DNA of 62,893 nucleotides, from the IMG/VR virus record IMGVR_UViG_3300007735_000776, positions 1 through 62,893 of that record; one strand, 5' to 3'. This document shows, in pieces, positions 2,282 to 58,763 of this stretch. The position numbers and the translations under genes are program-made. Each line of letters starts with the position of its first letter. Within the stretch, counting starts at the first letter, position 1. Below the pieces are notes generated by a model. The model worked only from the letters and a program-made list of their open reading frames with translations, was not told the DNA's origin and did no database searches. This stretch comes from a virus.

Positions 2282-3796
2282 TTAATAGAACGGCTGGTTG
2301 CGCCGCTTGAAAAATGGTTGTTCCTCGTCCTCATCCAAGAGGGTGCGTATGTATCCACCACGCCTAAATCGCATCAATGCCAAAGACACCGAGTCAACAT
2401 AGTCGTCATGCTCCCCCGCAGGGAAGCTTGCTACCTCATCAATAACTTCTTCTGCCCACTGTGTGTTGGGTGCCCAGACACGGCCTGACGCGAACAGGTC
2501 AGACACCGCATTAAGTCTTGAAATCTTGTCGTTACCCCTGACCGGCGTGAACTCCTGTACCGGTATACCCATCGCTCTCATCTCGTAGATGAGTGGGGCA
2601 CCTGACGCCTTTTTCTCCACAATGATCGAATCGGGCTCCCACTCCTTACACTCCTCAATAGCTTTCTTTTTAAGCGCTGGAAACTCAAGACGATCCCTAA
2701 ACGCATTGAGGAGGATGATATTGGCTTGTTTGACACCGGTATCGTCGTCCATATAAAAGACGCCCCACGTGGTGCAGGCGCTATAGTCAGCACGGTTAGT
2801 TTTTTCAAACGCCGTATCCCAAGCTTGCAGCACAAAATCACAATATGGCGGGTTATCCTCTTCCCATATCTGCCACCATTCACGTTTGACGATAGCAGAG
2901 GACTCAGATGTGGGGTTCTGCTGGTACTGAGCCATCCATTTAGCGTTGGGAAGCTCGTTTTTTAGCGCCTCTAATTCTTTTTTAGACCAAAACTGAGGCC
3001 AAAGCGGTTGGCCTGACTCAAAAAGCGCCGGAAACTCGATCACTTCCCACTCTTCACCACTTCTTTGGGCTGCGGACTTCAAAACTTGGCCTGTTAAGTC
3101 CTTTTTAGACCATCTCGTCATCACTATGACGATGGCTCCCCCCGGTTGCAGACGCTGACGAGGGCCAGATGTGTACCACTCGTAGGTCTTATCGTAGATT
3201 TCGGGGTTCACTTCGGCAAGTGCTGCCTCTTGTTCGCTATGTGGATCGTCAATAATGAGCAAATCAGCGCCCTTACCGGTAACAGCACCGCCGACACCAA
3301 TAGCAAAGTACTCACCAGCGTAATTTGTAGCCCAACGCCCAGCGGCTTTCGAGTCTGCTTGTAGCGCAACATCGGGAAAAAGGTCCTTATAACGGTCTGA
3401 GTCCACTAAGTTACGAACTTTTCGACCAAAACCTACCGCTAATTCAGCAGTGTGGGAGGTCTGGATCACTTTTTTGCTAGGAAATTTTCCCAAAAACCAA
3501 CTCGGCAATAAATACGACGCAAACTCCGACTTAGTGTGACGTGGCGGCATGTTGATAATCAGGCGTTTTACCTTGCCTTCTGCCACCCGCTCGAACGCAC
3601 GTGCCATCTTCTCGTGATGTCTGCCGTGGATGAAGTTAGGCCAGACGTACTTCACGTACTCCATGAAGTTACTTTTAGCGACATCCTGCGCTTTAGCTCG
3701 CCGGGCCTCGGCGATGAGTGCCCCGACCTTCTGTTGTACAGCCGGTGGCAGGTTGGGGAGAGCCTCTTGTGCTTTACGAAGGAGTTCCGGACTCAT
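2282..3796 (-). CDS. terL: Terminase large subunit
   Basis: This is the ATP-driven packaging motor and headful or site nuclease. With the start at ATG 3796 it has 504 residues. A Walker A-like P-P-R-H-T-K-S lies at about 84-90 and Walker B L-L-I-I-D-D-P at about 179-185. The RNase H-like nuclease domain shows acidic residues in Q-A-W-D-T (about 327), V-E-K-K-A-S-G (about 394) and H-D-D-Y-V-D (about 463-467). The frame extends to ATG 3844, but the M-S-P-E-L-L start at 3796 has a G-rich ribosome site and overlaps the small subunit by only 23 bases. It is the second gene of the leftward late operon. Confidence 0.95.
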   Translation of the reverse strand: MSPELLRKAQEALPNLPPAVQQKVGALIAEARRAKAQDVAKSNFMEYVKYVWPNFIHGRHHEKMARAFERVAEGKVKRLIINMPPRHTKSEFASYLLPSWFLGKFPSKKVIQTSHTAELAVGFGRKVRNLVDSDRYKDLFPDVALQADSKAAGRWATNYAGEYFAIGVGGAVTGKGADLLIIDDPHSEQEAALAEVNPEIYDKTYEWYTSGPRQRLQPGGAIVIVMTRWSKKDLTGQVLKSAAQRSGEEWEVIEFPALFESGQPLWPQFWSKKELEALKNELPNAKWMAQYQQNPTSESSAIVKREWWQIWEEDNPPYCDFVLQAWDTAFEKTNRADYSACTTWGVFYMDDDTGVKQANIILLNAFRDRLEFPALKKKAIEECKEWEPDSIIVEKKASGAPLIYEMRAMGIPVQEFTPVRGNDKISRLNAVSDLFASGRVWAPNTQWAEEVIDEVASFPAGEHDDYVDSVSLALMRFRRGGYIRTLLDEDEEQPFFKRRNQPFY

Positions 3797-4370
3797 CCGT
3801 ATCCCCCGACTCACCAAGCTCCTCATCGATATCGATGTCGGCAATACTCTTAGGAGCGTCTTCCTTAAACGTCACATCGGTAACACCGCCGTACAGCTCT
3901 AACGTCTTCATCAAATCCGTCTCAATATCTTGTACGGTGCGATGCGTAATGTTGATGTCAATGCGTTCAGAGAACAAGCCAACACCTGCAATCCGCCCTA
4001 AGTTTTCCAGTGCCTTCATGCGCTGGCGAGGATCAGGGTCAACGGACTCAACGAGCAACTTGTTGGTCACGTAATTTCTAAGACGGCGGGATACGTCCAG
4101 CACCTCTTGGTCCCATTCATCAAGAATGGCTTCCAGATTCAGTATGGTGCCGGGGGTTAGCTGTTTGGCAGAAGGAATCTTTTTGGTAGCGAAGATTTCG
4201 TGGGACTTCGCCTTGTCGTCGGGAGTGATGTCTACTTGCGCCCCTTGGCTTATAAGTTCTTGGACTGTTTCAAAGAGGGCGTGCGCCTTCTGACGAAAGT
4301 CGTCGATTTCCTCCGGCGTGGTGTCGAAGGGAAGTGGGATACCCACTTCAGGCGTTGCGAGTATAGGCAT
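3774..4370 (-). CDS. terS: Terminase small subunit
   Basis: This 198-residue protein is encoded immediately upstream of and overlapping terL. Small subunits bind the packaging start site and regulate the motor. The sequence has a central helical region (about 60-135) and an acidic, Ser/Thr-rich C-terminal tail rich in I-D-I-D-E-E, a common arrangement for the tail that contacts the large subunit. ATG 4370 follows ACGGA. A leftward promoter at 4434-4406 gives a leader of roughly 30 bases. Identity is inferred mainly from position and general architecture, since small subunits diverge rapidly. Confidence 0.75.
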   Translation of the reverse strand: MPILATPEVGIPLPFDTTPEEIDDFRQKAHALFETVQELISQGAQVDITPDDKAKSHEIFATKKIPSAKQLTPGTILNLEAILDEWDQEVLDVSRRLRNYVTNKLLVESVDPDPRQRMKALENLGRIAGVGLFSERIDINITHRTVQDIETDLMKTLELYGGVTDVTFKEDAPKSIADIDIDEELGESGDTDESGTPS

Positions 4371-4693: not shown

Positions 4694-4709
4694 ATTAACA
4701 GCTGTTAAT
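4694..4709. promoter_or_regulatory. Palindromic site 1 (perfect)
   Basis: ATTAACAGCTGTTAAT is a perfect 16-bp inverted repeat, followed by AAAT. It lies about 33 bases upstream of the probable early promoter -35 and is the first of the eleven dispersed sites. Confidence 0.8.
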
Positions 4710-4741
4710 AAATCGAATGGTGTACCCTGTCAAAAAATGCT

Positions 4742-4770
4742 TTGATTATTCGAACACTCCGCTATATTAG
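4742..4770 (+). promoter_or_regulatory. Probable rightward early promoter
   Basis: TTGATT (4742-4747) with a 17-base spacer to TATTAG (4765-4770), or the overlapping TATATT two bases earlier, makes a plausible sigma70 promoter about 50 bases upstream of the first rightward gene. The match is only moderate; the position, in the divergent region next to palindrome 1, supports it. Confidence 0.45.
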
Positions 4771-4821
4771 AACCATGTCGAGCGCATCTCGGCATAACTA
4801 ATCTAAACAACGGAGGAAATT

Positions 4822-5325
4822 ATGAAATACGAAACACTTACCAAAAACGTAATCGACGCGGTTCGCAACGAGTTAACAGGTGTTAATAAATGGCAAGTCG
4901 CGGGAACTAGCGTGCGCGAGTTCTACGGCACTGAAACGGCACTGACCGAAGTCAAGGCGCAATTCATTGCGGATGCCATCTTGCCAGCGCTCGACAAAAA
5001 ACACGCCACTGCACTCGCCGCCGAGTTACCTCGTAAGGGTAGCAAAGAATATAACGCGCTCGATGCCGCTGGGGTTGCCAAGTGGGAAATTCAGAATCAA
5101 GCGAAAAAAGATGCGCGCTCGACTGCGGCGACGATGTTCTCGCGCATCGTTGGCTACGCTTTCCCGAAAGAAAAAACCGAGAGCGCACCGAAATCGCTTG
5201 AGACTAAATTGCTCGAACTTATCAACGATGCAATTGGCAAAATTGAAAAGGCTGAAAGTCCCGAGTTCGATGCACTCGCGGCACTGACCCACTTGCGCGG
5301 CGCGGTTTCAATCATTGCCAAGTAA
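4822..5325 (+). CDS. Hypothetical early protein, 167 residues
   Basis: This is the first gene of the rightward block, with a strong GGAGGAAAT ribosome site before ATG 4822. The protein is mixed alpha-helical and charged, with no cysteine cluster, membrane segment or family motif I recognise. Residues about 18-22 (L-T-G-V-N) are encoded by palindromic site 2, so the DNA site lies within the first 65 bases of the gene. The first-gene position suggests a host-takeover or regulatory role, which is inference only. A GC-rich hairpin follows the stop. Confidence 0.8.
   Translation: MKYETLTKNVIDAVRNELTGVNKWQVAGTSVREFYGTETALTEVKAQFIADAILPALDKKHATALAAELPRKGSKEYNALDAAGVAKWEIQNQAKKDARSTAATMFSRIVGYAFPKEKTESAPKSLETKLLELINDAIGKIEKAESPEFDALAALTHLRGAVSIIAK
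4873..4886. promoter_or_regulatory. Palindromic site 2, inside first early gene
   Basis: TTAACAGGTGTTAA, flanked by TAAAT on the right, lies 178 bases after site 1. It encodes L-T-G-V-N in the overlapping gene. Confidence 0.75.
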
Positions 5326-5331
5326 TCACTC

Positions 5332-5349
5332 GCCCCCCGCAAGGGGGGC
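5332..5349 (+). other. Intercistronic GC-rich hairpin
   Basis: GCCCCCC, a GCAA tetraloop (GNRA type) and GGGGGGC form a perfect 7-bp stem directly after the first early gene. There is no U-run, so it is more likely an mRNA-stabilising or processing hairpin than a terminator. Confidence 0.6.
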
Positions 5350-5369
5350 ATCACTCAAGGGAAAATGAA

Positions 5370-5546
5370 ATGCACCACACAATCACTCTGGAATTCGACG
5401 GCATCGAGCGGCGCTATGAAACTCAGTCTTACAACGATGCAATCGTTTTAGTTGACGCATTAACAAGAATTCATTCCGGCGCTCGTGTTTGTCTGTTAGA
5501 TCAGCATGGTCACGAAACCTACGTTTATGATCCGCACTTCGCATAA
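5370..5546 (+). CDS. Small hypothetical protein, 58 residues
   Basis: ATG 5370 follows AAGGGAAA. The 58-residue product begins M-H-H-T-I-T-L-E-F-D and ends D-P-H-F-A. It looks like a small beta/alpha protein with no membrane segment or metal-binding cysteines. It lies between the GC-rich hairpin and a strong terminator, so it is the last gene of the first early transcript. The competing ATG at 5365 is out of frame and gives only a short peptide. Function unknown. Confidence 0.65.
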   Translation: MHHTITLEFDGIERRYETQSYNDAIVLVDALTRIHSGARVCLLDQHGHETYVYDPHFA

Positions 5547-5564
5547 CCAACCTTGCCCCACTCG

Positions 5565-5591
5565 CCCCGACTTCGGTCGGGGTTTTTTATT
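5565..5591 (+). terminator. Rho-independent terminator
   Basis: CCCCGAC (5565-5571), a UUCG tetraloop closed by C-G (5572-5575) and GTCGGGG (5576-5582) are followed by TTTTTTATT. The 7-bp stem, stable UUCG loop and U-tract make it a textbook intrinsic terminator ending the first early transcription unit. Confidence 0.9.
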
Positions 5592-5658
5592 GTCCGCTGT
5601 TTCCATCATCTTTGATGATAGTAGCTGTAGCTGATGAAGATGATGATGCAACAACTTA

Positions 5659-5672
5659 TTAACAGGTGTTAA
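5659..5672. promoter_or_regulatory. Palindromic site 3, intergenic
   Basis: TTAACAGGTGTTAA, with an outer A/T pair extending it to 16 bp, lies about 70 bases after the first terminator and just before the opposed TGTTCC/GGAACA hexamer clusters. Confidence 0.75.
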
Positions 5673-5695
5673 TGCGGATGAGGCACAGCGCAGCG

Positions 5696-6028
5696 TGTTC
5701 CAAGCAGGGCAGACCTTTGTTCCGTTTGTTCCAGCTTTGTTCCGTTCGCTGGAACAGCCAAAACCGTTGGTACGCCTACGTTTTGAGGCTTTTTTATATG
5801 TTTGTTCCATTGTTCCACATATATATAACACCTTCCCAAAAATTCTTTTTCACTTTACATTGTTAAGTATGGGATTCTCCCTGCCTTCGTGACTTCGTCG
5901 GCAGGTGTATTTTTGCGGAACATGGAACAGAACCCACAACCAATCACGCAACACGTTGATTTTAAATACATTTCGTGCGTTTTAAAACGCGGAACAAAGC
6001 CAGAACAAGCGGAACAAAACATGGAACA
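5696..6028. other. Candidate replication origin: opposed hexamer clusters
   Basis: TGTTCC occurs at 5696, 5718, 5727, 5738, 5803 and 5811. Its complement GGAACA occurs at 5751, 5917, 5924, 5991, 6011 and 6023. The two sets are almost fully segregated and point at each other across an AT-rich tract (about 5790-5870). The stretch is non-coding, 491 bases between genes at 5546 and 6038, and sits at the start of the replication-side block. Iteron-like hexamers around an AT-rich tract are what a plasmid-type origin looks like. The assignment is inference: no initiator gene is adjacent, and operator function is an alternative. Confidence 0.4.
5880..5914 (+). terminator. Weak terminator-like hairpin
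   Basis: CCTGCC (5880-5885) and GGCAGG (5900-5905) form a 6-bp stem with a 14-base loop, followed by TGTATTTTTG. The stem is short and the U-run interrupted, so this is only a possible attenuator ahead of the zinc-ribbon gene. Confidence 0.3.
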
Positions 6029-6037
6029 GGAGAACAC

Positions 6038-6250
6038 GTGACAACAAACACGAAATTTTGTCGCTTATGTGGTAGCTCAATTACTCCACCTGAGCGACGT
6101 TCCATAACATCTTTGTGTATGACGTGTGGAGAAGCAGAAGCGCGGAAGGTAAAGCACTGCATAGTTCCGATGCACAAGTCGAACTATATTGCAGTTTTCG
6201 ACAAAGATGTATTAACAGGTGTTAATCAAAAGGGAGGAATCGTCAAATGA
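6038..6250 (+). CDS. Small zinc-ribbon protein
   Basis: The frame opens at 5975, but the best start is GTG 6038 with AGGAG six bases upstream; the region before it belongs to the hexamer cluster. The 70-residue product has C-R-L-C near residue 9 and C-M-T-C near residue 30, the two knuckles of a four-cysteine zinc ribbon. Such small proteins usually bind nucleic acid or other proteins. Palindromic site 4 encodes L-T-G-V-N near the C-terminus. The stop overlaps the next start as ATGA, implying translational coupling. Confidence 0.7.
   Translation: MTTNTKFCRLCGSSITPPERRSITSLCMTCGEAEARKVKHCIVPMHKSNYIAVFDKDVLTGVNQKGGIVK
6212..6225. promoter_or_regulatory. Palindromic site 4, at 3' end of zinc-ribbon gene
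   Basis: TTAACAGGTGTTAA with the outer A/T pair. It ends about 22 bases before the next start codon and is read as L-T-G-V-N in the overlapping gene. Confidence 0.75.
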
Positions 6251-6417
6251 AGTACAAAGGCATAGTGAAATTCACCTACATCCAAATGATCGAGGTAGAA
6301 GCTGCAACCCAAGAGAGTGCGCAGGAGATCATCTGGGAAAAACTCGATAGGTCAAGAGCGGTGGAGGATGGGGTCGAACTCTACGATATATGGGAGGTTA
6401 CTGATGGACAGGTTTGA
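6247..6417 (+). CDS. Small hypothetical protein, 56 residues
   Basis: The ATG at 6247 overlaps the previous stop (ATGA) and follows a GGAGG-type site. The 56-residue product begins M-K-Y-K-G-I-V-K-F and has the look of a small ferredoxin-like or swapped-hairpin fold: a beta-strand, a helix rich in A/E/Q, then a terminal strand ending I-W-E-V-T-D. This pattern is common in small phage proteins and gives no function. It overlaps the next tiny gene by 14 bases. Confidence 0.65.
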   Translation: MKYKGIVKFTYIQMIEVEAATQESAQEIIWEKLDRSRAVEDGVELYDIWEVTDGQV

Positions 6418-6490
6418 CGTTGTTGGCTTGATATGTTTTTGTATGCTAATCGTGATGCTGTTTGCTGAATACATGGAGTTACTCGAATGA
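6404..6490 (+). CDS. Single-pass membrane micropeptide, 28 residues
   Basis: GGAGG lies seven bases upstream of ATG 6404, and the stop overlaps the next start as ATGA. The 28 residues are M-D-R-F-D, a hydrophobic stretch (V-V-G-L-I-C-F-C-M-L-I-V-M-L-F) and an acidic tail, consistent with one membrane helix. The ribosome site and tight coupling on both sides argue for translation. Early phage membrane micropeptides often alter host membrane functions; no specific role can be given. Confidence 0.55.
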   Translation: MDRFDVVGLICFCMLIVMLFAEYMELLE

Positions 6491-6693
6491 AACTAATTAA
6501 CCGCAAGACAGGTAAAGAGGTGCAGATTGGCGACACCCTGATCCGCAAGAACTACAAAGGTTTCAAGCATCGGTTCGAGGTGCTTGCGATTGGCAAAGAG
6601 TTGATCCACGTCAGAAAGTTGGGTGCAGATGACCAGTGGATTTACTTGAACGTGCATCCCGAATCCTTGCAGTTGGATTGGGTGTTGGTGTGA
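6487..6693 (+). CDS. Small hypothetical protein, 68 residues
   Basis: Coupled to the micropeptide by ATGA. The basic, beta-rich sequence (K-L-I-N-R-K-T-G-K-E-V-Q-I-G-D at the start, then V-L-A-I-G-K and I-H-V-R) reads like a small SH3-like barrel, as in many phage nucleic-acid-associated proteins. That fold guess is from the strand pattern alone. Function unknown. Confidence 0.7.
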   Translation: MKLINRKTGKEVQIGDTLIRKNYKGFKHRFEVLAIGKELIHVRKLGADDQWIYLNVHPESLQLDWVLV

Positions 6694-6748
6694 AAACAAG
6701 TTGGTAGAAGTTAATTTAGGTACGTTTTAACGGACACAAGGAGGGTCT

Positions 6749-6904
6749 ATGACTGAAGCAGAATGGGATGAGCATATCGATGCGCTGTACGCGCGGTGGG
6801 TGGCAGACAACGAGGCGTATGCGTTCGAGGACAACTACGAGCCGTTTGAGATTAAAACGCAACCGCAGAAATCAAACGATGAACTACTTACCAAAACAAG
6901 TTAA
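6749..6904 (+). CDS. Small acidic hypothetical protein, 51 residues
   Basis: AAGGAGG lies just upstream of ATG 6749. The 51-residue product is acidic and rich in Trp, Tyr and Asp/Glu (M-T-E-A-E-W-D-E-H-I-D at the start), with a polar C-terminal tail. Its TAA stop (6902-6904) is formed by palindromic site 5, so the site, the stop and the next gene's ribosome site share one short block. Acidic early phage proteins are sometimes DNA mimics; nothing specific supports that here. Confidence 0.65.
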   Translation: MTEAEWDEHIDALYARWVADNEAYAFEDNYEPFEIKTQPQKSNDELLTKTS

Positions 6905-6920
6905 CAGGAGTTAATAAATG
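6901..6920 (+). promoter_or_regulatory. Palindromic site 5 fused with stop, RBS and start
   Basis: TTAACAGGAGTTAATAAATG combines a one-mismatch palindrome (6901-6914), the TAA of the upstream gene, an AGGAG Shine-Dalgarno and the ATG of the next gene. An identical 20-mer occurs at 9266-9285. The single change from TGTTAA to AGTTAA is what creates the Shine-Dalgarno. Confidence 0.75.
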
Positions 6921-7790
6921 CGAAATTACTACCAAGACTACAAGAACCTGCACGACTCGATCACACCGATACGTGGCAGGGCGGTTGACGTGCGGCCCAT
7001 CGGAGAGCGCAGGAGGGATTGGGAAACCATACGTATGGATGGAGATGTTGTGGCATGCCGCCTACACAACACGGACGTGGTGCGCTACTACCCAGATGGC
7101 AAAATCGGGTTGCAATGCGATGGCTGGCACACCCCATCAACGGCAGACTTCATGCACATCCACTCGCCGTGGTCATGCTTCAAACGGAACAATAAGTTGT
7201 GGGTGATGGCGCGTAACGAGGAACAGAAAGCCATGCACTACCCCATACCCAACAAGGGAGAGATTGTGTTTGAGCGTATACCCGATGCACTGCACAGTGG
7301 TTGGCGCCCCGTCGGAGATATTGTCGTGGAGAAACGTGTTGTCAATCGTGCGAAAGCAAGGGAAGCGCGGACACCATACCAACCGTTCCTGCAATGGGCT
7401 AAGACATTCTTAAAGATGTCCGATGGTTGGATCATGCACGAGACTAGGAAGCAGGTGCTACCGATGGAGAGGAACTACTTTCAGTATGACAAGTACCCTG
7501 ATGCGAAGGTGATGGAGTTAACTAGATCGGGCGATGACATGCGGTACTTGGAGGCTTTGTGTGTGCTGCTAACAAGCGGGGCGATAGAAAAGCGGGTTGC
7601 GGAGGTGATCCAGCCGGAGCCAATGATTATTCAAGGAGTTAACTACGCGATACCAACAACCCACTACGACTTGCGGTACGACTACGAGTCACTACGCACA
7701 CGCCTATACAAGATGGTGGAGAAGGTGTCGGAGATACATGACAGGGTGCGCGTGGGTGTGTCCGAGCGTGCCCAAACGAACGTGGTGTAA
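6918..7790 (+). CDS. Conserved hypothetical protein before MoxR-type ATPase
   Basis: 290 residues with the start fixed by the AGGAG inside palindromic site 5. It is rich in Arg, Tyr and Trp, with R-G-R-A-V-D-V-R-P near the N-terminus, a beta-rich first half (about 30-150) and helical segments to the end. I recognise no catalytic motif or membrane segment. It lies directly upstream of the promoter for the AAA+ gene and may belong to the same functional cassette, for instance as a substrate or adaptor of the ATPase. That role is inferred from position only. Confidence 0.75.
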   Translation: MRNYYQDYKNLHDSITPIRGRAVDVRPIGERRRDWETIRMDGDVVACRLHNTDVVRYYPDGKIGLQCDGWHTPSTADFMHIHSPWSCFKRNNKLWVMARNEEQKAMHYPIPNKGEIVFERIPDALHSGWRPVGDIVVEKRVVNRAKAREARTPYQPFLQWAKTFLKMSDGWIMHETRKQVLPMERNYFQYDKYPDAKVMELTRSGDDMRYLEALCVLLTSGAIEKRVAEVIQPEPMIIQGVNYAIPTTHYDLRYDYESLRTRLYKMVEKVSEIHDRVRVGVSERAQTNVV

Positions 7791-7794
7791 AAGC

Positions 7795-7823
7795 TTGACA
7801 ACCAGTAACAGTTATGTTATAAT
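7795..7823 (+). promoter_or_regulatory. Near-perfect sigma70 promoter for the MoxR-VWA cassette
   Basis: TTGACA (7795-7800), exactly 17 bases, then TATAAT (7818-7823): both hexamers are full consensus. The predicted start near 7830 gives a leader of about 68 bases to ATG 7898, which has an AAAGGAG ribosome site. This is the strongest promoter I see in the window and would be read by host polymerase. Confidence 0.9.
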
Positions 7824-7897
7824 ATGTCTTACAGTGGTAGTAGCGAGAAGTAAACCAGCGGTACTTGCGAAGCAACATCAACTAAAAGGAGAAACAA

Positions 7898-8995
7898 ATG
7901 AGTGCAATCAACTTTGGTCATTCCGTATCTTTGCAGGAGTTCTCGAAAGCAATCGGGCAGGTAGGGCGTAGTGTCACCATCATCGGACAGGGCGAGCCGG
8001 GCATTGGCAAGTCTGCCATGCTGAAAGTTCTTTCCAAGCAACACCCAGACTACGCAACGGCGTACATCGACTGCACCCTGCTGGACTTGGGCGACTTTGC
8101 CCTGCCATATACAGAGAGCGTATTAACAGATGTTAATACAGAGGGCAGCGTCACGAAGATCACTAAGTTCGCACCAAACGCACGGTTCAAGATGCACGAG
8201 GGCAAGCCGGTGATCGTGATGCTTGACGAGATCGGCAAGGCAATGAAGGCGGTCAAGAATGTGCTGCTGACTTTGATGCTGGAGCACAGGATCGGTGACC
8301 ACTATCTGCCCGAGGGTAGCATCGTGTTCGGTACTACAAACTTGTTGACAGATGGTGTTGGTGACATGCTCGAAGCTCATGCAAGGAATCGTGTGTGCTT
8401 TGTGACCGTGCGCAAGCCTGATGCAGACGAGTGGATCGAGTGGGCAATCAGTAACAACATTGATCCAACCATCATCGCGTGGGTCAAGCAGTTCCCGCAT
8501 GCACTGGCAAGCTATACCGACGGATCGCAGAAGGAGAACCCATACATATTCAACCCGACGCGTGCCGGTAACGGTGCGGTGGTTACACCAAGAAGTTTGG
8601 AGAAGGCATCGAACATCGCTAAGCAACGTGGCGAACTAGGTGACGCACTAACAATCAGTCTACTCACAGGCACTATTGGTGAGAGCGCAGCGCGTGACAT
8701 GCAAGCCTTCTTTACTGTGGTGGACAAGCTGCCGACATGGGATGCCATCCTGAATGATCCGAAGAACGCGAAGCTGCCGGACGATACGGTTGCCAAATGT
8801 ATCTTGGTGTTCTCTGCGGTGACACGTGTGACTAAGGATACGTTGGACAAGTGGATGGGTTACATGCAGCGCATGGACATGGAGTGGCAAGCCTTGTTCG
8901 CAACGAGCGTGATGAAGTCCACTGACAAGCAGTCGTTCTGTGTCATGAACAAAGAGTTCAAGGACTGGGCACTGAAGAATCAGTGGTTGTTCTGA
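7898..8995 (+). CDS. MoxR-type AAA+ ATPase
   Basis: 365 residues. Walker A G-E-P-G-I-G-K-S is at 32-39 and Walker B V-I-V-M-L-D-E at about 105-111. A sensor-like G-T-T-N follows near 146 and an arginine-finger-like A-R-N-R-V near 162. The layout matches AAA+ proteins of the MoxR/CobS/NorQ group, hexameric chaperone ATPases that act with VWA-domain partners to insert metals or remodel complexes. A VWA protein is encoded two genes downstream, which strengthens the call. Palindromic site 6 encodes L-T-D-V-N at 76-80. Transcription is likely from the promoter at 7795-7823. Confidence 0.9.
   Translation: MSAINFGHSVSLQEFSKAIGQVGRSVTIIGQGEPGIGKSAMLKVLSKQHPDYATAYIDCTLLDLGDFALPYTESVLTDVNTEGSVTKITKFAPNARFKMHEGKPVIVMLDEIGKAMKAVKNVLLTLMLEHRIGDHYLPEGSIVFGTTNLLTDGVGDMLEAHARNRVCFVTVRKPDADEWIEWAISNNIDPTIIAWVKQFPHALASYTDGSQKENPYIFNPTRAGNGAVVTPRSLEKASNIAKQRGELGDALTISLLTGTIGESAARDMQAFFTVVDKLPTWDAILNDPKNAKLPDDTVAKCILVFSAVTRVTKDTLDKWMGYMQRMDMEWQALFATSVMKSTDKQSFCVMNKEFKDWALKNQWLF
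8123..8136. promoter_or_regulatory. Palindromic site 6, inside ATPase gene
   Basis: TTAACAGATGTTAA with the outer A/T pair extending it to 16 bp. It lies about 300 bases downstream of the strong promoter and is read as L-T-D-V-N. Confidence 0.75.
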
Positions 8996-8996
8996 T

Positions 8997-9269
8997 ATGT
9001 GGAACCTGAAAGCGGGTGGGTTTGATACTGCGCTGGAATTGTTTGGAAGCGATAGTTTTATCGTGCAAGCACTTTCGATTCTTCCAAGGTATCAAGTCGA
9101 GGTGATGAAATTCTCAAGCGTGGAAGGAAACAAGTTTAGGATTATTCGTCTTGAGGATGACCCATCAACACCGAAACATGTACCTCGCAAAGTGTTGCTT
9201 GCTGAGTTCGATGATGCAAATGAGTTTGTTGCAATGGCGAGATTGATCTTGGCAAGTGAAACAAATTAA
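8997..9269 (+). CDS. Hypothetical protein between ATPase and VWA genes
   Basis: 90 residues, starting one base after the ATPase stop, so it is probably translated by reinitiation; its own Shine-Dalgarno is weak. Sequence features are a G-G-F-D-T-A-L-E-L-F N-terminus, a beta-hairpin-like middle and a helical C-terminus. The stop TAA is formed within palindromic site 7. No family recognised. The conserved order ATPase, this gene, VWA suggests a small accessory subunit. Confidence 0.75.
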   Translation: MWNLKAGGFDTALELFGSDSFIVQALSILPRYQVEVMKFSSVEGNKFRIIRLEDDPSTPKHVPRKVLLAEFDDANEFVAMARLILASETN

Positions 9270-9285
9270 CAGGAGTTAATAAATG
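9266..9285 (+). promoter_or_regulatory. Palindromic site 7 fused with stop, RBS and start
   Basis: Identical 20-mer to 6901-6920: a degenerate palindrome (9266-9279) carrying the upstream stop codon, AGGAG, and the ATG of the VWA gene at 9283. Confidence 0.75.
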
Positions 9286-10479
9286 ACCAAGCTAAGTGCC
9301 GAGCAGCGTGTGCAACGTGCGCACGTGTGGCTCATGAAACATCCGAACTATTGTTTGTACTCCGGCATCTTCATGTTGGGTAAGACAAGCGTAGAGGATG
9401 ACGTGTCAACTGCATGTACCGATGGGCGCAACGTCGAGTACGGTCGGGCGTTCACGGACAAGCTAAGCGAAGCAGAGCTACGTGCTGTTGTATTGCACGA
9501 GAATTTGCACAAAGCTTTCCGTCATCTGAGCATGTGGAAACATCTTTACAAAGAGCATGCACAGCTTGCGAACATGGCGTGTGACTACGTGATCAACCTG
9601 ATGATCGATGATTCTGATCCGTCGAACACCAACGTGAAGCTACCTGACTGTGGCTTGCTTGACCCGAAGTATCGTGGTTGGGATTCGCAGCGGGTGTTCA
9701 ACGACTTGAAGCAACAAGCTGACGAGGGGAGCGTCAAGATCAAGACCAAAGGTGACCCGATTGGTAAGGACGTGCCAGTGGTAGACGTGCCCGACTTAGA
9801 TGCTCATGACTGGGACGGCGCTGAGGGGATGAGTAACGAAGAGAAAGAAGTTCTTGCGCGTGACGTTGATCAGGCGTTGCGTCAAGGCGCGATACTCGCG
9901 GGGAAGATGAAGGGTAATGTTCCACGTGAAATCACTGACGTGCTGGAGGCGAAGGTTGATTGGCGTGACGCATTGCGTGAATTCATCACGTCGTTCTGTA
10001 TGGATAGAGATGAATCGACATGGCGTCGTCCTTCACGCAGGTGGATAGGACAAGATGTTTACATGCCTAGCTTGATCGGCGAGTCGGTCGGTCGCATCGT
10101 GGTAGCTATCGACATGTCAGGCTCTATCGGTGCGGAGGAGATCGGTCAGTTCTTGGGCGAGGTGCGAAGCATTTGTGATCACGTCAAGCCCGAGGGTATC
10201 GACTTGTTGTATTGGGATACTGAGGTATGTCAGCACGAGAAGTATGAACAAGATCAACTGGACAACTTGTTATCAAGTACCAAGCCCCGAGGTGGTGGCG
10301 GCACTGATCCGCAGTGCATCGTCAACTACATGAGCGATCACAAGATCAAGGCTGAGTGTGCAGTGATATTGACCGATGGCTATGTAGGTTCATGGGGCAA
10401 AGACTGGCAATGTCCTACGCTTTGGGGCATTACTAGTGACGTAGTGAGCGCGGTTGGTAAGACCGTGAAGGTGCAGTGA
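9283..10479 (+). CDS. VWA-like / putative metallopeptidase protein
   Basis: 398 residues. The N-terminal half has H-E-N-L-H at 72-76, a zinc-peptidase HExxH motif within the context L-H-E-N-L-H-K-A-F-R-H. The C-terminal half is a VWA-like domain with the MIDAS pattern D-M-S-G-S at 278-282, Thr about 342 in G-G-G-T-D-P and Asp about 366 in L-T-D-G-Y. This HExxH plus VWA arrangement matches the DUF2201/COG3864 family. Such proteins are usual partners of MoxR-type ATPases, as here. Whether the HExxH site is catalytic or only structural cannot be told. The next gene overlaps as GTGA. Confidence 0.88.
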   Translation: MTKLSAEQRVQRAHVWLMKHPNYCLYSGIFMLGKTSVEDDVSTACTDGRNVEYGRAFTDKLSEAELRAVVLHENLHKAFRHLSMWKHLYKEHAQLANMACDYVINLMIDDSDPSNTNVKLPDCGLLDPKYRGWDSQRVFNDLKQQADEGSVKIKTKGDPIGKDVPVVDVPDLDAHDWDGAEGMSNEEKEVLARDVDQALRQGAILAGKMKGNVPREITDVLEAKVDWRDALREFITSFCMDRDESTWRRPSRRWIGQDVYMPSLIGESVGRIVVAIDMSGSIGAEEIGQFLGEVRSICDHVKPEGIDLLYWDTEVCQHEKYEQDQLDNLLSSTKPRGGGGTDPQCIVNYMSDHKIKAECAVILTDGYVGSWGKDWQCPTLWGITSDVVSAVGKTVKVQ

Positions 10480-10658
10480 AGCCGTTAAAGCCAAGCACGT
10501 ACGCAGTATTGAGGGATAAAGATGGACACATTCGCTACGTCAGCGAGTACGCCATGAAGAACTTCAAGCACATACGGCAAGGCGATAAGGTGATAGGGCG
10601 CGGGTTAACCGTGGAAGAAGTAAATGCGTTACTTAAATTAACACCTGTTAACAAATAG
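10476..10658 (+). CDS. Small hypothetical protein, 60 residues
   Basis: Starts at GTG 10476, overlapping the VWA stop as GTGA, so it is coupled to it. It is basic and contains Y-A-V-L-R-D-K-D-G-H-I-R-Y-V-S followed by a helix and a V-I-G-R-G-L-T-V-E-E-V-N-A-L-L-K segment. The last residues (L-T-P-V-N-K) are encoded by palindromic site 8, which abuts the stop codon. Function unknown. Confidence 0.7.
   Translation: MKPLKPSTYAVLRDKDGHIRYVSEYAMKNFKHIRQGDKVIGRGLTVEEVNALLKLTPVNK
10638..10651. promoter_or_regulatory. Palindromic site 8 (inverted centre)
   Basis: TTAACACCTGTTAA is the only copy whose centre reads CC and not GG, i.e. the opposite orientation of the common form. It overlaps the end of the preceding gene and lies 17 bases before the next ATG. 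Confidence 0.75.
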
Positions 10659-10667
10659 GAGAGTGCC

Positions 10668-11537
10668 ATGATTCAGAATAGTTCAATGTTGGTTGACCTA
10701 AACATCTCGGTATGGACAGGTCGCAAGCAAGACAAACGTGTGTCCGATGAGATCGATGCCGCCAAGAGTACCAAGACGAGGGCTGGCAACTATCATAAGA
10801 AATTGCTGGCAGGTACACAGAAGCTAGATGACTTGCAAAAGTTAACTACAGGTATTCGTACGTGGCACTACACGCAGACGTTGCCGTGGTCGGATGGTGG
10901 CTCACGCCTACTACCCATGAAGAACTTCTTTGACTACAAAGCTACGTTGTCTGACTTGGAGACGCAGTTCAATGATGCAGTGGAGTCGTTCCTAGTTGAT
11001 TACCCTACGCTGGTATCCGCTGCGGCGTTTCAGTTGGGTGACTTGTTCGATGCCTCAGAGTATCCAGATGTCGAGCGACTACGTGACAAGTTCCGCTTCC
11101 GCTTTGTGTTCTTGCCAGTGCCTGACGTGGGTGACTTCCGCATCGATGTTAACGAGCAGCACAAAGCCGAGTTGGTTCAACAATACGAATCGTTTTACCA
11201 GAACAAGTTGTCAGAAGCAATGCAGGACGCTTGGGATCGGCTGCACGATTGCGTATCTAAGATGAGCGAGAAGCTGGCGAACGCACCTGCACCACGACTG
11301 ACCAAAGATGGTGACGAGAATTACACACAGATATTCCGTGATTCGCTGGTGACTAATGCGGTGGAGTTGTGTGAGTTGCTGACCAAACTCAACGTGACTA
11401 ATGACCCGAAGCTGGAGAACGTACGTAAGAATCTGGAATCCACTATCGATGGTGTATCGGCTAAGGAGTTGCGTGAGGATGATGGCTTGCGCTTGGTCGT
11501 AAAGGCAGAGGTAGACAAGATTCTGTCTATGTTCTGA
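10668..11537 (+). CDS. Conserved cassette protein, DUF3150-like
   Basis: 289 residues, AGGAGAGTGCC ribosome context before ATG 10668. The N-terminus (L-N-I-S-V-W-T-G-R-K) and the internal W-S-D-G-G-S-R-L-L-P-M-K are features I associate with a conserved phage/plasmid family resembling DUF3150, whose members are typically encoded beside MoxR-type ATPases and VWA proteins. The rest is long amphipathic helices (about 85-289), suggesting an elongated or oligomeric structural partner. Family assignment is from memory of sequence style and neighbourhood, so it is tentative. It belongs to the ATPase-VWA cassette by order and strand. Confidence 0.7.
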   Translation: MIQNSSMLVDLNISVWTGRKQDKRVSDEIDAAKSTKTRAGNYHKKLLAGTQKLDDLQKLTTGIRTWHYTQTLPWSDGGSRLLPMKNFFDYKATLSDLETQFNDAVESFLVDYPTLVSAAAFQLGDLFDASEYPDVERLRDKFRFRFVFLPVPDVGDFRIDVNEQHKAELVQQYESFYQNKLSEAMQDAWDRLHDCVSKMSEKLANAPAPRLTKDGDENYTQIFRDSLVTNAVELCELLTKLNVTNDPKLENVRKNLESTIDGVSAKELREDDGLRLVVKAEVDKILSMF

Positions 11538-11542
11538 ATAAG

Positions 11543-11556
11543 TTAACACGTGTTAA
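11543..11556. promoter_or_regulatory. Palindromic site 9 (perfect core), intergenic
   Basis: TTAACACGTGTTAA is a perfect 14-bp palindrome in the 37-base gap between two genes, followed by TAAAT and then the AAGGAG of the next gene. Confidence 0.8.
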
Positions 11557-11574
11557 TAAATCAAGGAGAGTGCG

Positions 11575-12378
11575 ATGTTAAATTTTGTAGATGTTGAGAA
11601 AGCCGATGGAACTCCGCTACTGAGTATTGTGAAAGAGTTCCGGCGTGTGCAGGTCAGTCGGTTCCCAATCAACGTGGTGTTCACATCGGGGATACAGGCT
11701 AAGTTCTACGACAGCAGGTTTCCTAACCTAAAGCCTGTTGCTAACGTATGGCAAGACTCTGATAGGGAGGGTGACTATTGGGTTATTGAATCTCGCAACA
11801 TAGTCAACGAGAAGTACAGGAACGAGCGTCGGCATCGTAAGCAAACGAAGGATGATAAGAAGCTGTTTCGGTTCATGCGTGAATACATCAAGCCAGTCTC
11901 ATCCCAAGATGTTGCTATGGATAAGCTATCTACCTTCCAACACCACATTGAAGAGTGGAAGCGTGATGCAGAGATGAAGATGCGAAACGTCACAGACATT
12001 TCCAGAAACGACGTGATGGCTGAGATTATCCGTATGAAAGCAGTTGGGTATCAACCACAGACAGAGAAGTTTGCACGAGTTATGGATAGCGGTATCGAGG
12101 CGTGGGTAGAGTATCGTCGCAGACGTGAGCGCAGGATCATGCAGGTGCACGTGCTCATCAACCCTGATGATTCTGTCGAGGTTTACTGCCCTGACTTGCT
12201 TGGGTATGGCGGCATACAACAAGGCAACAACAACTACAACTCGATGGACGAGGCACCAATGTGCGTTCAACAACAAGTTGCCATGCTGCGCATGATCGAG
12301 GACAAGGCGTTCATTCCTGAAGTGGGCAGCAAGATAAACAGCCATCAGTATTGGATCGAGGTGATGCCTGAAGAATAA
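11575..12378 (+). CDS. Hypothetical cassette protein, 267 residues
   Basis: ATG 11575 follows AAGGAGAGTGCG. The protein has a beta-rich N-terminal third (about 1-75), a highly basic R-R-H-R-K-Q-T-K-D-D-K-K stretch near 90, helices through about 200 including R-R-R-R-E-R-R near 185, then a beta-strand region. The positive charge suggests nucleic-acid or capsid contact; I recognise no family. It is the last gene before a new promoter at 12394, so it probably ends the MoxR-VWA transcription unit or is read through. Confidence 0.75.
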   Translation: MLNFVDVEKADGTPLLSIVKEFRRVQVSRFPINVVFTSGIQAKFYDSRFPNLKPVANVWQDSDREGDYWVIESRNIVNEKYRNERRHRKQTKDDKKLFRFMREYIKPVSSQDVAMDKLSTFQHHIEEWKRDAEMKMRNVTDISRNDVMAEIIRMKAVGYQPQTEKFARVMDSGIEAWVEYRRRRERRIMQVHVLINPDDSVEVYCPDLLGYGGIQQGNNNYNSMDEAPMCVQQQVAMLRMIEDKAFIPEVGSKINSHQYWIEVMPEE

Positions 12379-12393
12379 TCTTTGTCATAGTGC

Positions 12394-12422
12394 TTGACAC
12401 AGTTCGAAAGCGTTTATATATT
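12394..12422 (+). promoter_or_regulatory. Strong sigma70 promoter
   Basis: TTGACA (12394-12399), 17 bases, TATATT (12417-12422): a consensus -35 and a 5/6 -10. It lies just after the 267-residue gene and within the upstream extension of the next open frame, which shows that the true start of that gene is the ATG at 12444. Confidence 0.85.
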
Positions 12423-12443
12423 ACAAGAACGAAGAAGGTTACT

Positions 12444-12734
12444 ATGACTGAGATTGAATTGGCAACATTACGATTTTTCATTTGGGTAAAGCTTGACGCG
12501 ACAGGTGACGTGATTGAACTCATTCTTGGAGACAACGCATTACTTGATACCGTGAAGCTACCCGATATTTCTGAAGTACCACAGTTCGTGAGGGATAGAC
12601 TTGCGTTACTTAAATTAACAGGTGTTAATAGATCAAACATCAAAGACATTGTAGGTAGAAAGATGTCTGACGAGATGATGATTCTTTACTTAAACCGTGA
12701 TGAGTACGATCAAATAAAGGAAGAGTGCAAATGA
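12444..12734 (+). CDS. Hypothetical protein, 96 residues
   Basis: The frame is open from 12390, but a promoter occupies that stretch and GAAGG precedes ATG 12444, so the start is placed there. The acidic 96-residue product has a helical N-terminus (T-E-I-E-L-A-T-L-R-F-F-I) and a C-terminal L-K-L-T-G-V-N-R segment encoded over palindromic site 10. The stop overlaps the next start as ATGA. It is the first gene of the transcript from 12394. Function unknown. Confidence 0.7.
   Translation: MTEIELATLRFFIWVKLDATGDVIELILGDNALLDTVKLPDISEVPQFVRDRLALLKLTGVNRSNIKDIVGRKMSDEMMILYLNRDEYDQIKEECK
12615..12628. promoter_or_regulatory. Palindromic site 10, inside 96-residue gene
   Basis: TTAACAGGTGTTAA with the outer A/T pair. 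The preceding bases (CTTAA) match those before site 8, hinting that more than the core was copied. Confidence 0.75.
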
Positions 12735-12907
12735 AAAAGAAACTTTCAGCGCAGGACGAGATAGCTAACTTGGAGAATCGATTAGCCAAAGCACGAGCCG
12801 AGATCGACAACCTACAACATCAACTACAGCAACTAACCATCAAGTACTACGACACGGCAGCAGTGCTGAAGTATTTGGAATCTAAACTAAGCATCACGAG
12901 AAAGTAA
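12731..12907 (+). CDS. Small coiled-coil protein
   Basis: 58 residues from ATG 12731, which overlaps the previous stop. AAGGAAGAGTGCAA lies upstream. The sequence is almost entirely heptad-like (A-N-L-E-N-R-L-A-K-A-R-A-E-I and further leucines), so it should form a coiled coil and oligomerise. It lies directly before a VRR-NUC nuclease and may be its partner or an independent scaffold. That link is positional. Confidence 0.7.
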   Translation: MKKKLSAQDEIANLENRLAKARAEIDNLQHQLQQLTIKYYDTAAVLKYLESKLSITRK

Positions 12908-12909
12908 CC

Positions 12910-13242
12910 ATGCCTACCCCTGAGAGCAAAGTTAAGGATAAGGTAAAGAAGTTGTTAGCTGAGCATGGAGCCTACTACTTCATGCCAGCTACGCATGGTT
13001 ATGGATCGTCGGGTGTGCCTGACATTGCAGCTTGCATAAACGGAAGGTTTATCGGGATAGAGTGCAAGGCCAACGGCGGTAAGGCCACCGCTCTCCAGTT
13101 GAAGAATCTGCGGGAACTATCATCGGCGGGGGGCATAGCAGTCCTCATCGACGAAACCGGATTGGACGATTTGGAAGCTTTATTAACAGGCGTTAATAAA
13201 TTAAACGATGGCATCTTTCTTAGTTTTTTAAAAGGAGACTGA
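12910..13242 (+). CDS. VRR-NUC domain nuclease
   Basis: 110 residues. The pattern G-S-S-G-V-P-D-I-A-A (Asp near 38), I-G-I-E-C-K-A-N (Glu-X-Lys near 50-52) and the downstream K-A-T-A-L-Q-L (Gln near 60) is the PD-(D/E)XK core of the VRR-NUC family, single-domain, Mg-dependent nucleases thought to act on branched DNA. In phages they are usually linked to recombination or processing of replication intermediates. Palindromic site 11 encodes L-T-G-V-N near the C-terminus. Confidence 0.88.
   Translation: MPTPESKVKDKVKKLLAEHGAYYFMPATHGYGSSGVPDIAACINGRFIGIECKANGGKATALQLKNLRELSSAGGIAVLIDETGLDDLEALLTGVNKLNDGIFLSFLKGD
13183..13196. promoter_or_regulatory. Palindromic site 11 (one mismatch)
   Basis: TTAACAGGCGTTAA, followed by TAAAT; one base off the palindrome. 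This is the last copy of the family going rightward. I find none in the remaining 49 kb. Confidence 0.65.
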
Positions 13243-15491: not shown

Positions 15492-15675
15492 TCCAAAGGA
15501 CGAGAAGATTTTTACGTACGTGGTAAATAAAAATGCGCCGGTCACAATCAAACAAGTTATGAAAGCTTTGACGATCAGTGAGACGCATGCGAAACGTGCG
15601 CTGGATTTTTTTGTGTCGGTTGGATTGGCAGAGTTGTCTAAACAAGGTAGCACTCGCTTCTACAAAGCAAAATGA
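15475..15675 (+). CDS. Small winged-helix-like protein A
   Basis: 66 residues. Helix 1, then V-T-I-K-Q-V-M-K-A-L-T-I-S-E-T-H-A-K-R-A-L-D-F-F as helix-turn-helix, then V-G-L-A-E-L-S-K-Q-G-S-T-R-F-Y as the wing hairpin: the compact layout of a single-domain winged helix. First of three such genes in a row upstream of the DNA polymerase. It may be an anti-repressor or transcription regulator; the target is unknown. Confidence 0.7.
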   Translation: MNGKIDPKDEKIFTYVVNKNAPVTIKQVMKALTISETHAKRALDFFVSVGLAELSKQGSTRFYKAK

Positions 15676-15893
15676 AACCAAGAGCTAAACCGAGTGATGC
15701 CACAGTAGTCCGGCTGCAAAGAGCACTCAAGGGTTTGTATTCGTTTAGCGTCAAAGATGTTGCACGTATTCTGAAAAGAAGTATCCGTAGTGCCGAGCGT
15801 TACATAATTAAGTTGAGGGAACTCGATGTAGTTGAACTACGGTATCGCGGGGCAGATCGTTATTACTACTATAGGATCAGGAGAAACAAATGA
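15672..15893 (+). CDS. Small winged-helix-like protein B
   Basis: 73 residues, coupled to the previous gene by ATGA. F-S-V-K-D-V-A-R-I-L-K-R-S-I-R-S-A-E-R-Y-I is the helix-turn-helix, and a Tyr-rich wing (R-G-A-D-R-Y-Y-Y-Y-R-I-R-R) follows. Its layout matches protein A, so the two may be diverged duplicates. DNA binding is likely; target unknown. Confidence 0.7.
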   Translation: MKPRAKPSDATVVRLQRALKGLYSFSVKDVARILKRSIRSAERYIIKLRELDVVELRYRGADRYYYYRIRRNK

Positions 15894-16189
15894 AGTTGGA
15901 AAAATTAGCGCAAGCTTTGAATGATGTGCGTAACAAGTTCAAGATCGACAGTACCGACCTGCTGATCATCAACTATATATTGGAGATGAAGAAGCATGGT
16001 GACGTGCTGACCATGCAGTTCGTGAAAAACTTTGAAGGCGCGTCGGAGGCAACTACCCATATGCGTATGAAGAAGTTAATCAAGCGTGGCTTACTCGCAC
16101 GGGTGGGCGATGATCAAAACCTACGTATCAAGAAGTTGGAGCCGACAGGTAAGACCAACGAATTACTCAAGTACCTTGCGGAGATTTAA
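15890..16189 (+). CDS. MarR-like winged-helix protein C
   Basis: 99 residues, coupled by ATGA and followed by polA with a one-base TAATG overlap. Residues about 20-75 have the L-L-I-I-N-Y-I-L-E helix, an HTH in S-E-A-T-T-H-M-R-M-K-K-L, and a wing, as in the core of MarR/ArsR-type regulators. Direct coupling to the polymerase gene suggests a role in controlling or assisting replication, which is inference. Confidence 0.75.
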   Translation: MKLEKLAQALNDVRNKFKIDSTDLLIINYILEMKKHGDVLTMQFVKNFEGASEATTHMRMKKLIKRGLLARVGDDQNLRIKKLEPTGKTNELLKYLAEI

Positions 16190-21122: not shown

Positions 21123-21542
21123 ATGAGATATAGACTATCGATCCCAACCGCGACAGAACTACACAGCATCCTCGAATACCACGATGGCTGCTTGTATTGG
21201 AAGGTTACTGCGCATGGTAAACCTACTGACGAACGAATACGTGCTGGCTATCTAAATAGAGTCAGTGGGTATAGAGGAATTACCATCAACGGTACTACAT
21301 ACGCAGAACATAGAATTATTTGGAGAATGTTTCATCCACGAGGACCAATGCCTTTCGTTTTAGACCACATAGATGGTAATCGTAGTCACAACCGCATCGA
21401 AAATCTTCGAAGATACACCGAGAGCGGTAATCAAAATAATCGGCACCTTGGCATGGCACCAAAGGTACGAAGCTCGGGAAGATTAAAACGCCTTTTACAA
21501 ACGAAGGAGAGTGCAAATGTCAGACCCCATCAACGCCGATAG
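21123..21542 (+). CDS. HNH homing-type endonuclease
   Basis: 139 residues. L-D-H-I-D-G-N-R-S-H-N-R-I-E-N-L-R near 80-96 is a clear HNH motif of the free-standing homing type; the N-terminal part has the DNA-contact strands usual in this group. The C-terminus is basic and runs over the ribosome site and start of the next gene by 26 bases, which suggests insertion just upstream of that gene. No Shine-Dalgarno precedes the ATG; instead its own promoter places transcription start at the ATG. It is probably a selfish endonuclease. Confidence 0.88.
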   Translation: MRYRLSIPTATELHSILEYHDGCLYWKVTAHGKPTDERIRAGYLNRVSGYRGITINGTTYAEHRIIWRMFHPRGPMPFVLDHIDGNRSHNRIENLRRYTESGNQNNRHLGMAPKVRSSGRLKRLLQTKESANVRPHQRR

Positions 21543-23033: not shown

Positions 23034-23123
23034 TAAGTTGTAGGGGGGCTAGGTTAGCTACCGAAGAGGGCGTTACCGTCACGCCTCTGCCCATCCTCTT
23101 TTGACGGTTTGTTAAGGACGGTT

Positions 23124-26220: not shown

Positions 26221-26247
26221 CCCCCGGCAGGTCCGGGGGTCTTTTTT
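26221..26247 (+). terminator. Terminator between convergent gene blocks
   Basis: CCCCCGG (26221-26227), a five-base loop and CCGGGGG (26233-26239) are followed by TCTTTTTT. This is a strong intrinsic terminator for the rightward block. In the leftward direction it has only a weak U-run, so leftward termination is less certain. Confidence 0.9.
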
Positions 26248-58028: not shown

Positions 58029-58763
58029 TTACTCTTGATTTTGGGAGGTGTCAAGGTATTCGAAAGCCCAGCCTTTATACGGCCCCCGCTTTAGCGGTAG
58101 CCCAGATTTCAACGCACGGTTAATGGTGGGTGGCTTCATCCCCGAAGCTTCCCGTAACGCTTGAATACTGTCGTACTGCAACGTCTTTTTATCTGGGCTT
58201 GTAGCTACAACACGCCTACTTACTTTAGCACCGTGGTCAGGGCGTTTCTTGCCAAACCAATAACTACCTTCGCCAGACAATGTAGCTGAGATTTTGGCTC
58301 TTGTAGAAGCAGATACATAATGCCCTCGCATAGATTTACGTCGTTTTACCTTCTCTTCTTCGGTCTGAATTCTGGCTTTTGAGGCTATTGCAATTTTTGT
58401 TTTGGCTTCCTCCGTATGAGTAAACTTCTTACCCCACATGGGGTTTTTCTCCCCGGACCAGCCTGTAGTTGGAGCGGTAGCATCTGTTGCTAAGTTATAA
58501 CAATGGTTTTTACCAACATGTTCTTTAAGCCAGACATTCTCAGCGGCGAGAATATCCACCTCATCAGATAGCTCTTCAACAATAACAAAAGTAAAAGCCT
58601 GTCCCCCATATTTCGCCCATGCAGCTTGTAAATGCTTATTGGCATGGGTGCCACGTCTAAGCATCCACCAGTGAACACGTTTACGTCGAGTAAAGTCTTC
58701 TGCGCTGCCCACATAAAACTTGTTGTTGACTACGTTAATAATCTTGTAAATGCCTCGCGCCAT
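58029..58763 (-). CDS. GIY-YIG homing endonuclease with NUMOD modules
   Basis: 244 residues. G-I-Y-K-I near 4-8 and F-Y-V-G near 16-19 form the GIY-YIG core, with R-R-K near 26 and a Glu (A-E-N) near 75. Next come NUMOD3-like repeats (N-P-M-W-G-K near 106, G-S-Y-W-F-G-K near 168) and a C-terminal NUMOD1-like HTH (I-Q-A-L-R-E-A-S-G near 205). AAGGAGG precedes the ATG. It sits between the major capsid gene and the next structural gene, as a free-standing selfish endonuclease. Confidence 0.9.
   Translation of the reverse strand: MARGIYKIINVVNNKFYVGSAEDFTRRKRVHWWMLRRGTHANKHLQAAWAKYGGQAFTFVIVEELSDEVDILAAENVWLKEHVGKNHCYNLATDATAPTTGWSGEKNPMWGKKFTHTEEAKTKIAIASKARIQTEEEKVKRRKSMRGHYVSASTRAKISATLSGEGSYWFGKKRPDHGAKVSRRVVATSPDKKTLQYDSIQALREASGMKPPTINRALKSGLPLKRGPYKGWAFEYLDTSQNQE

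Follow-up and report, generated by a model that had tools for sequence, protein, structure and literature searches.

The subject of this analysis is an array of eleven dispersed palindromes of the type TTAACAnnTGTTAA in the virus record IMGVR_UViG_3300007735_000776 of IMG/VR, whose full stretch of 62,893 nucleotides is called the window below. The array is probably a phage-encoded repressor system that would act in the manner of stoperators, as a roadblock to transcription, with the protein of its own first gene (4822-5325) as reader and a fast turnover of specificity. As judged from the sequences compared, it is one case of a wider operator system in which related phages switch from one palindrome code to another. 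The evidence that carries this reading consists of the sites and their symmetry, the gene positions they keep, their coordinated respelling in near-identical phages, the co-variation of their code with the first gene, and their location downstream of promoters.

A both-strand scan of the whole record, allowing up to two mismatches, gave eleven sites, all within 4.69-13.20 kb, whereas shuffled versions of the window averaged 3.3 matches, with 7 at most, and the reversed control pattern gave 0. An earlier note, made by eye from the same DNA, had listed these eleven coordinates and stated that no copy lies outside the interval; every coordinate was exact on rescanning, and no further copy appeared. 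Its two perfect palindromes (4694 and 11543), three one-mismatch copies (6901, 9266 and 13183) and six copies directly followed by AAAT were likewise recovered. The first perfect copy, at 4694-4709, is the 16-bp ATTAACAGCTGTTAAT, and the second, at 11543-11556, has 14 bp. The single mismatch always falls at position 9, leaving 8 of the 11 sites without any arm mismatch, and all but one end in TTAAT (10/11), the copy at 10638 ending in TTAAC. The sites, which are given without strand, are as follows (ORF, open reading frame):

4694..4709, Site 1, ATTAACAGCTGTTAAT, perfect palindrome, 120 bp upstream of the candidate reader gene
4873..4886, Site 2, within the candidate reader gene (LTGVN)
5659..5672, Site 3, intergenic
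6212..6225, Site 4, 3' end of ORF 5975-6250, upstream of ORF 6247
6901..6914, Site 5, AGGAG variant, overlapping the stop of ORF 6749-6904 and forming the Shine-Dalgarno sequence of gene 6918
8123..8136, Site 6, within the AAA gene, in an in-frame codon insertion
9266..9279, Site 7, AGGAG variant, overlapping the stop of ORF 8997-9269 and forming the Shine-Dalgarno sequence of gene 9283
10638..10651, Site 8, centre ~23 bp upstream of the DUF3150 gene
11543..11556, Site 9, perfect 14-bp palindrome, centre ~25 bp upstream of gene 11575
12615..12628, Site 10, within ORF 12390-12734 (LTGVN)
13183..13196, Site 11, 3' end of the VRR-NUC-like gene 12910-13242

Every site inside an ORF reads TTA ACA NNT GTT AA, encoding LTxVN, since a TAA would interrupt either of the other frames. 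In the copies at 6901 and 9266 the single changed base generates AGGAG, 8 nt 5' of the ATG of the next gene, and the TAA within the site is the stop codon of the gene upstream. These two Shine-Dalgarno variants, together with the frequent position of sites just before start codons, would suit an RNA element, that is, an mRNA hairpin or a ribosome-binding element with a translational regulator. However, among 205 distinct TTAACA-type sites from relatives, whose flanks are symmetric too (TTTATTAACA..TGTTAATAAA), 141 of the 148 changed pairs were broken and only 7 were still pairable. Other groups of phages have odd-centre palindromes, symmetric up to a one-base centre, and the symmetric bases beside such a centre cannot pair in an RNA hairpin; moreover, functional equivalents of the sites lie 232-241 nt inside the AAA gene. 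Because the base changes break the pairing, the comparison indicates that the sites are read as DNA and not as an RNA hairpin, which bears out the preference of the earlier note for a DNA-binding protein and makes an RNA element very improbable.

Changing palindromes at conserved gene positions

An exact-pattern scan of IMG/VR found several TTAACAnnTGTTAA sites each in many contigs, and in whole records the sites again form a single block: 11 lie within 9.7-18.0 kb of a 65-kb record and 14 within 24.9-34.5 kb of a 50-kb record. We then gathered 80 relatives through the DUF3150 protein, which is unrelated to the sites, and the sample was therefore not selected for them. In this set TTAACAnnTGTTAA occurs in nearly all relatives at 71% identity or more and in almost none below. 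Most relatives without it present another dispersed palindrome, of at least 14 kinds according to de novo palindrome finding, with copy numbers well above those of shuffled controls (usually 1-3 copies). The replacements include TAAAAACGTTTTTA (13 copies), ATTAAACnnGTTTAAT (12), TTAGGTAnTACCTAA (8), TCAAGTAnTACTTGA (7), TTAAGTCnGACTTAA (6), TACTGTCnGACAGTA (10), TACTGACnGTCAGTA (4), the TACTAAAC type (8), GTTAGGnnnnnnCCTAAC (14-20), the GTTAGTCnnnnGACTAAC type (10-12), GTTAGGGAATTCCCTAAC (4-8), GGTTAGTGanTCACTAACC (5-8), GTATAAnnTTATAC (5-6) and TGTAAACAnnTGTTTACA (7), others besides. A few relatives, mostly truncated contigs, gave no dispersed palindrome in the same search.

Gene positions are kept although the palindrome differs. 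Whichever palindrome is used, the AAA gene is preceded by a site at no more than 120 bp in 37 of 46 loci, and the same holds for the DUF3150 gene in 30 of 45; each array has between 5 and 37 sites across the systems compared. The upper end of this range is the cultured cyanophage Pag-Yong1 of Planktothrix (L200, OL906435), with 37 sites of GGTTCAGnCTGAACC at up to two mismatches, spread over early and late genes and many of them just 5' of annotated genes (site version GGTTCAGGCTGAACC, paired candidate protein UMO76074.1). Confinement to the early region, as proposed in the earlier note, thus holds in the window but fails as a general rule, the sites of Pag-Yong1 being genome-wide.

The clearest case of code switching is a pair of near-identical phages, L149 and L150 (the same phages as L245 and L246, respectively). 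Their proteins share 98.7% (AAA), 98.5% (VWA), 100% (DUF3150) and 99.7% (polymerase) of residues, and yet all seven syntenic sites are respelled alike, from MAAGTAnTACTTK in L245 to TAGGTAnTACCTA in L246. The two phages differ at 42 of 119 positions (35%) within the site columns, compared with 80 of 3,599 (2.2%) in the surrounding AAA-DUF3150 DNA.

The array region had no match among cultured phages by Megablast. Relatives that share the terminase only (Pelagibacter phages HTVC023P and HTVC027P, DSL-LC04 and 023Pt_psg01) had, in the parts read, nothing like these arrays beyond the level of shuffles; in HTVC023P an AT-rich palindrome occurs 14 times versus 7-9 in shuffles. The open-access literature offered no earlier description of such arrays, and no paper on Pag-Yong1 or on DUF3150 in connection with phage.

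Two further groups of contigs came up beside these arrays. L032 (110-5635) and L105 (3442-5261) are AT-rich (33% GC) and have 10-12 TTAACA-type palindromes, several at multiples of ~54-57 bp, which may be tandem repeats in a virus of a different kind. Contigs L212, L229 and L230 have TTAACA half-sites with a spacer of 3 bases or 1, not 2, along with diverged homologues of the window's first gene, and their sites are few because the contigs end.

The first gene as candidate reader

A reader would be expected wherever the sites are, and to differ when the sites differ. To follow the code, we scanned the 22 proteins shared by L245, L246, L248 and L247 for columns in which the three phages with AAGTA have a residue in common that L246 lacks, and compared these with columns in line with the genome tree. 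The site code is followed by the array's first gene alone, with 7 code-following versus 6 tree-following columns; the other shared proteins have 0-2 versus up to 41. Two of the seven columns (Q to F, I to T) are neighbours in the helix that precedes FRKAV, and the distant phage L268, which is of the TAGGT type like L246, has the same F and T. It is in this sister clade, L245 to L268, that the sequences give the strongest co-variation of site code with first gene.

In the clade of the window the first gene is w4822, and an array is present in all 36 of the loci with a w4822 homologue that have enough sequence to be testable. TTAACA phages with a core identity of 70-75% have homologues of 53-65% identity, and tblastn found none at the same core identity in L269 and L266, which have other codes (for L266 the genome comparison was partial); the first-gene protein of L269 is linked to w4822 by profile search. 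The w4822 protein had no match in Pfam, PHROG or PDB, nor among cultured phages by tblastn. Its AlphaFold model is all-helical and confident (mean predicted local distance difference test score, pLDDT, 90), while that of the sister-clade reader has low confidence (pLDDT 60). Taken together, the unannotated first gene is the likely reader of the sites on comparative grounds.

Other proteins near the array have recognisable DNA-binding folds, and the earlier note had pointed to the helix-turn-helix (HTH) proteins at 13436 and 22803. Neither is supported by the comparison. The XRE protein 13436 was rejected, because many relatives with an array lack it and because L149 and L150, which differ in palindrome, have identical copies, and homologues of 22803 exist in only 5 of the loci compared. 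The winged-helix candidate (15672, 15890) was also rejected, since L149 and L150 have 15672-type proteins of 98.8% identity. Were a host factor the reader, near-identical phages with differing codes would need to have different hosts. We consider any such other reader highly unlikely. As an observation apart, the two small winged-helix proteins adjoin each other (15672-15893 and 15890-16189) just 5' of the DNA polymerase, are conserved in many relatives, and have weak HVO_A0114-like and MarR/SarA-like matches.

Promoter geometry and the proposed roadblock

The array of the window lies in the early-gene block between the divergent terminase (2282-3844) and the replication genes (DNA polymerase A at 16189, helicase at 19544 and primase at 23109). 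Its genes and promoters are:

4742..4768, + strand, weak promoter-like TTGATT-15-TATATT with a short spacer, upstream of the candidate reader gene
4822..5325, + strand, first gene of the array (w4822), 167 aa, unannotated, candidate reader
7795..7823, + strand, perfect sigma-70 promoter TTGACA-17-TATAAT of the AAA gene, conserved in relatives, with a site downstream
7898..8995, + strand, AAA ATPase (phrog_1297)
9283..10479, + strand, VWA/metallopeptidase-like protein (DUF2201, phrog_1314)
10668..11537, + strand, DUF3150 protein, the query for finding relatives
12394..12422, + strand, sigma-70 promoter-like TTGACA-17-TATATT, with the next site 192 bp past the predicted start
12910-13242, VRR-NUC-like gene

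Elsewhere in the window we noted a GIY-YIG-type homing endonuclease (58029-58763) adjoining a head-protein gene, an HNH endonuclease (21123-21542) adjoining the helicase gene, and a 1,978-aa protein (26246-32182) with a large polyvalent protein associated domain (LPD39), in which an RNA polymerase domain was not detected.

Across 31 distinct TTAACA phages, 28 have a TTGACA-17-TATAAT-type promoter 5' of the AAA gene, and where this conserved promoter exists the AAA-gene sites lie downstream of it. In 18 of the phages the site itself lies ~25 bp 5' of the start codon; it is found 232-241 bp inside the gene in 9, at both places in 3 and at neither in 1. The inside version is carried by in-frame extra codons, in the window (8123-8136) as in L124, L206, L133, L134 and L214, and phages with a site just 5' of the gene usually do without these codons, as if one site per gene were required.

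The same geometry extends to all arrays. Of 62 distinct strong sigma-70 promoters (score of at least 11 of 12), 42 have a site centred between +20 and +80 relative to the predicted start, with a mode of about +45, and only 3 have one at -60 to +20. Lowering the cut-off to 10 of 12 gives 98 promoters, of which 75 are followed by a site within 400 bp, compared with 33 expected from random placement, and 3 overlap a site. Distances in the window are longer, with sites at +299 from the 7795 promoter and +192 from the 12394 promoter. Since the sites fall mostly at +20 to +80 and seldom in the promoter, a block in the transcribed region is indicated rather than competition for the promoter, and a stoperator-like roadblock would be the natural reading of this arrangement.

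Mechanistically, the palindromes would serve as operators for a sequence-specific DNA-binding protein, the product of the first gene of the array (4822-5325). Bound to sites that usually lie ~30-60 bp past promoters, or between and inside the genes that follow, this protein would block elongation by the host RNA polymerase and so shut down or tune the early block, its own gene included. The helix that contacts DNA and the sites would evolve together, which could give different codes in near-identical phages, and competition between phages (superinfection immunity) may drive the change. Both the binding of the sites by the first-gene protein and the resulting block of transcription are, like this role of immunity, what we infer from the sequences.

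The main rival to the roadblock is DNA-bound antitermination. Here the first-gene protein would be a positive regulator that loads ~45 bp past the start and modifies the paused polymerase, as lambda Q does, or that switches on the early operons in some other way. The same promoter-site anatomy and first-gene co-variation are compatible with it, as is one site per transcription unit, and at the reader's own promoter a site often lies upstream at an activator-like distance (-45 to -75). However, sites deep inside genes (8123, 12615 and 13183 in the window), and those found repeatedly between genes without promoters, would be needless for loading, and a fast code change is easier with a repressor of immunity-like function. 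A positive regulator is therefore, in our estimation, unlikely, although it is the alternative to be taken most seriously.

Several points weigh against the roadblock repressor. At the reader's own promoter a site is often upstream (~-47 in L243 and L244; in the window 4694-4709 lies upstream and 4873 downstream), an arrangement that fits activation or other autoregulation as well as repression, and therefore autoregulation may differ. For the co-variation, the comparison comprised five sister-clade sequences and proteins within ~17 kb, which leaves room for a reader encoded outside that span. A fold search with the w4822 model found nothing significant, with weak TetR-family matches at E ~0.6, and profile comparison detected no homology among the first-gene families of the three clades; we therefore make no claim that one superfamily reads all arrays. 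Lastly, the counts are not fully independent, since the arrays compared are in part related.

Known systems and lifestyle

In the Cluster A mycobacteriophages (L5, Bxb1, Trixie), a single phage protein reads dispersed stoperators that lie mostly off promoters; the site consensus differs between related phages and co-diverges with the repressor, and relatives can be heteroimmune (PMC6550527, PMC9283540). These stoperators are asymmetric 13-bp sites in one main orientation, and their reader is an HTH repressor acting as a monomer (PMC6550527, PMC9283540). The arrays described here likewise have many dispersed sites, most of them off promoters, and a consensus that co-diverges with one phage-encoded protein, most strongly in the L245-L268 sister clade. 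In contrast, they consist of palindromes of varied spacing, their candidate reader has no PHROG, Pfam, PDB or significant fold match and no detectable homology to the L5-type HTH repressor, temperate genes (integrase, partition) were not found in 19 records, and the code can switch between otherwise near-identical phages. The stoperator analogy drawn in the earlier note is thus apt, with sites mostly downstream of promoters and co-diverging with a phage protein; by this analogy the arrays may work like stoperators, rather than being members of the stoperator family.

The SAS/ESAS repeats of Cluster K mycobacteriophages, asymmetric 13-bp GGGATAGGAGCCC sequences 3-7 bp from the start codon (PMC3203893), are comparable in standing at the starts of early, non-structural genes, and some sites of the window include a Shine-Dalgarno sequence. 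The present sites differ from them in their palindromic core, in having centres mostly 10-40 bp, often 22-40 bp, upstream of genes or inside them, and in a repeat sequence that changes between relatives. Lambdoid CI/Cro operators are palindromic and read by a phage repressor, but they are few and overlap promoters, unlike the 5-37 sites found here, mostly downstream of promoters.

The centromeres of the plasmid-prophage N15 are few to many inverted repeats dispersed through lytic genes. A centromere-like or DNA-organising role (partition, packaging or condensation), with the same protein as reader, would agree with many dispersed palindromes whose changing specificity recalls centromere incompatibility groups, and the earlier note had named partition-like sites among its alternatives. 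However, searches for integrase, resolvase and ParA (PF00589, PF00239, PF13614), positive in control genomes, found none in the 19 records, which include the complete cultured Pag-Yong1. The partition idea is thus left unsupported and, unlike N15, the arrays have no ParA-type partner. Their tight, promoter-proximal clustering, usually in one gene block, is a geometry for which DNA organisation has no need either, and we regard such a role as improbable.

The same absence of integrase, resolvase and ParA suggests that the array-bearing phages are probably lytic, or lysogenise by other means. A prophage search in GTDB genomes returned only 5 contigs of metagenome-assembled genomes, with hosts uncertain; one of them, L288 (62.8 kb), has its own array of GGGTACnnGTACCC (seven copies). 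Rapid turnover of repressor codes is typical of superinfection immunity (PMC6550527), and its apparent occurrence without evident lysogeny is, to us, the most surprising part of these results.

The roadblock reading would carry the concept of stoperators beyond the temperate phages of actinobacteria to aquatic phages without integrases, both uncultured and cultured (Pag-Yong1), with palindromic sites and an unrelated, unannotated candidate reader. In near-identical phages, differences both in residues of the candidate reader and in site spelling provide a natural experiment on the rewriting of a protein-DNA code at many sites. More tentatively, and with less than even confidence, an unannotated DNA-binding family might run a position-conserved roadblock network in strictly lytic aquatic phages, where turnover of the code would decide which co-infecting relatives are silenced, a form of superinfection immunity without lysogeny. 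The question thereby raised is why a lytic phage would need a private repressor code.

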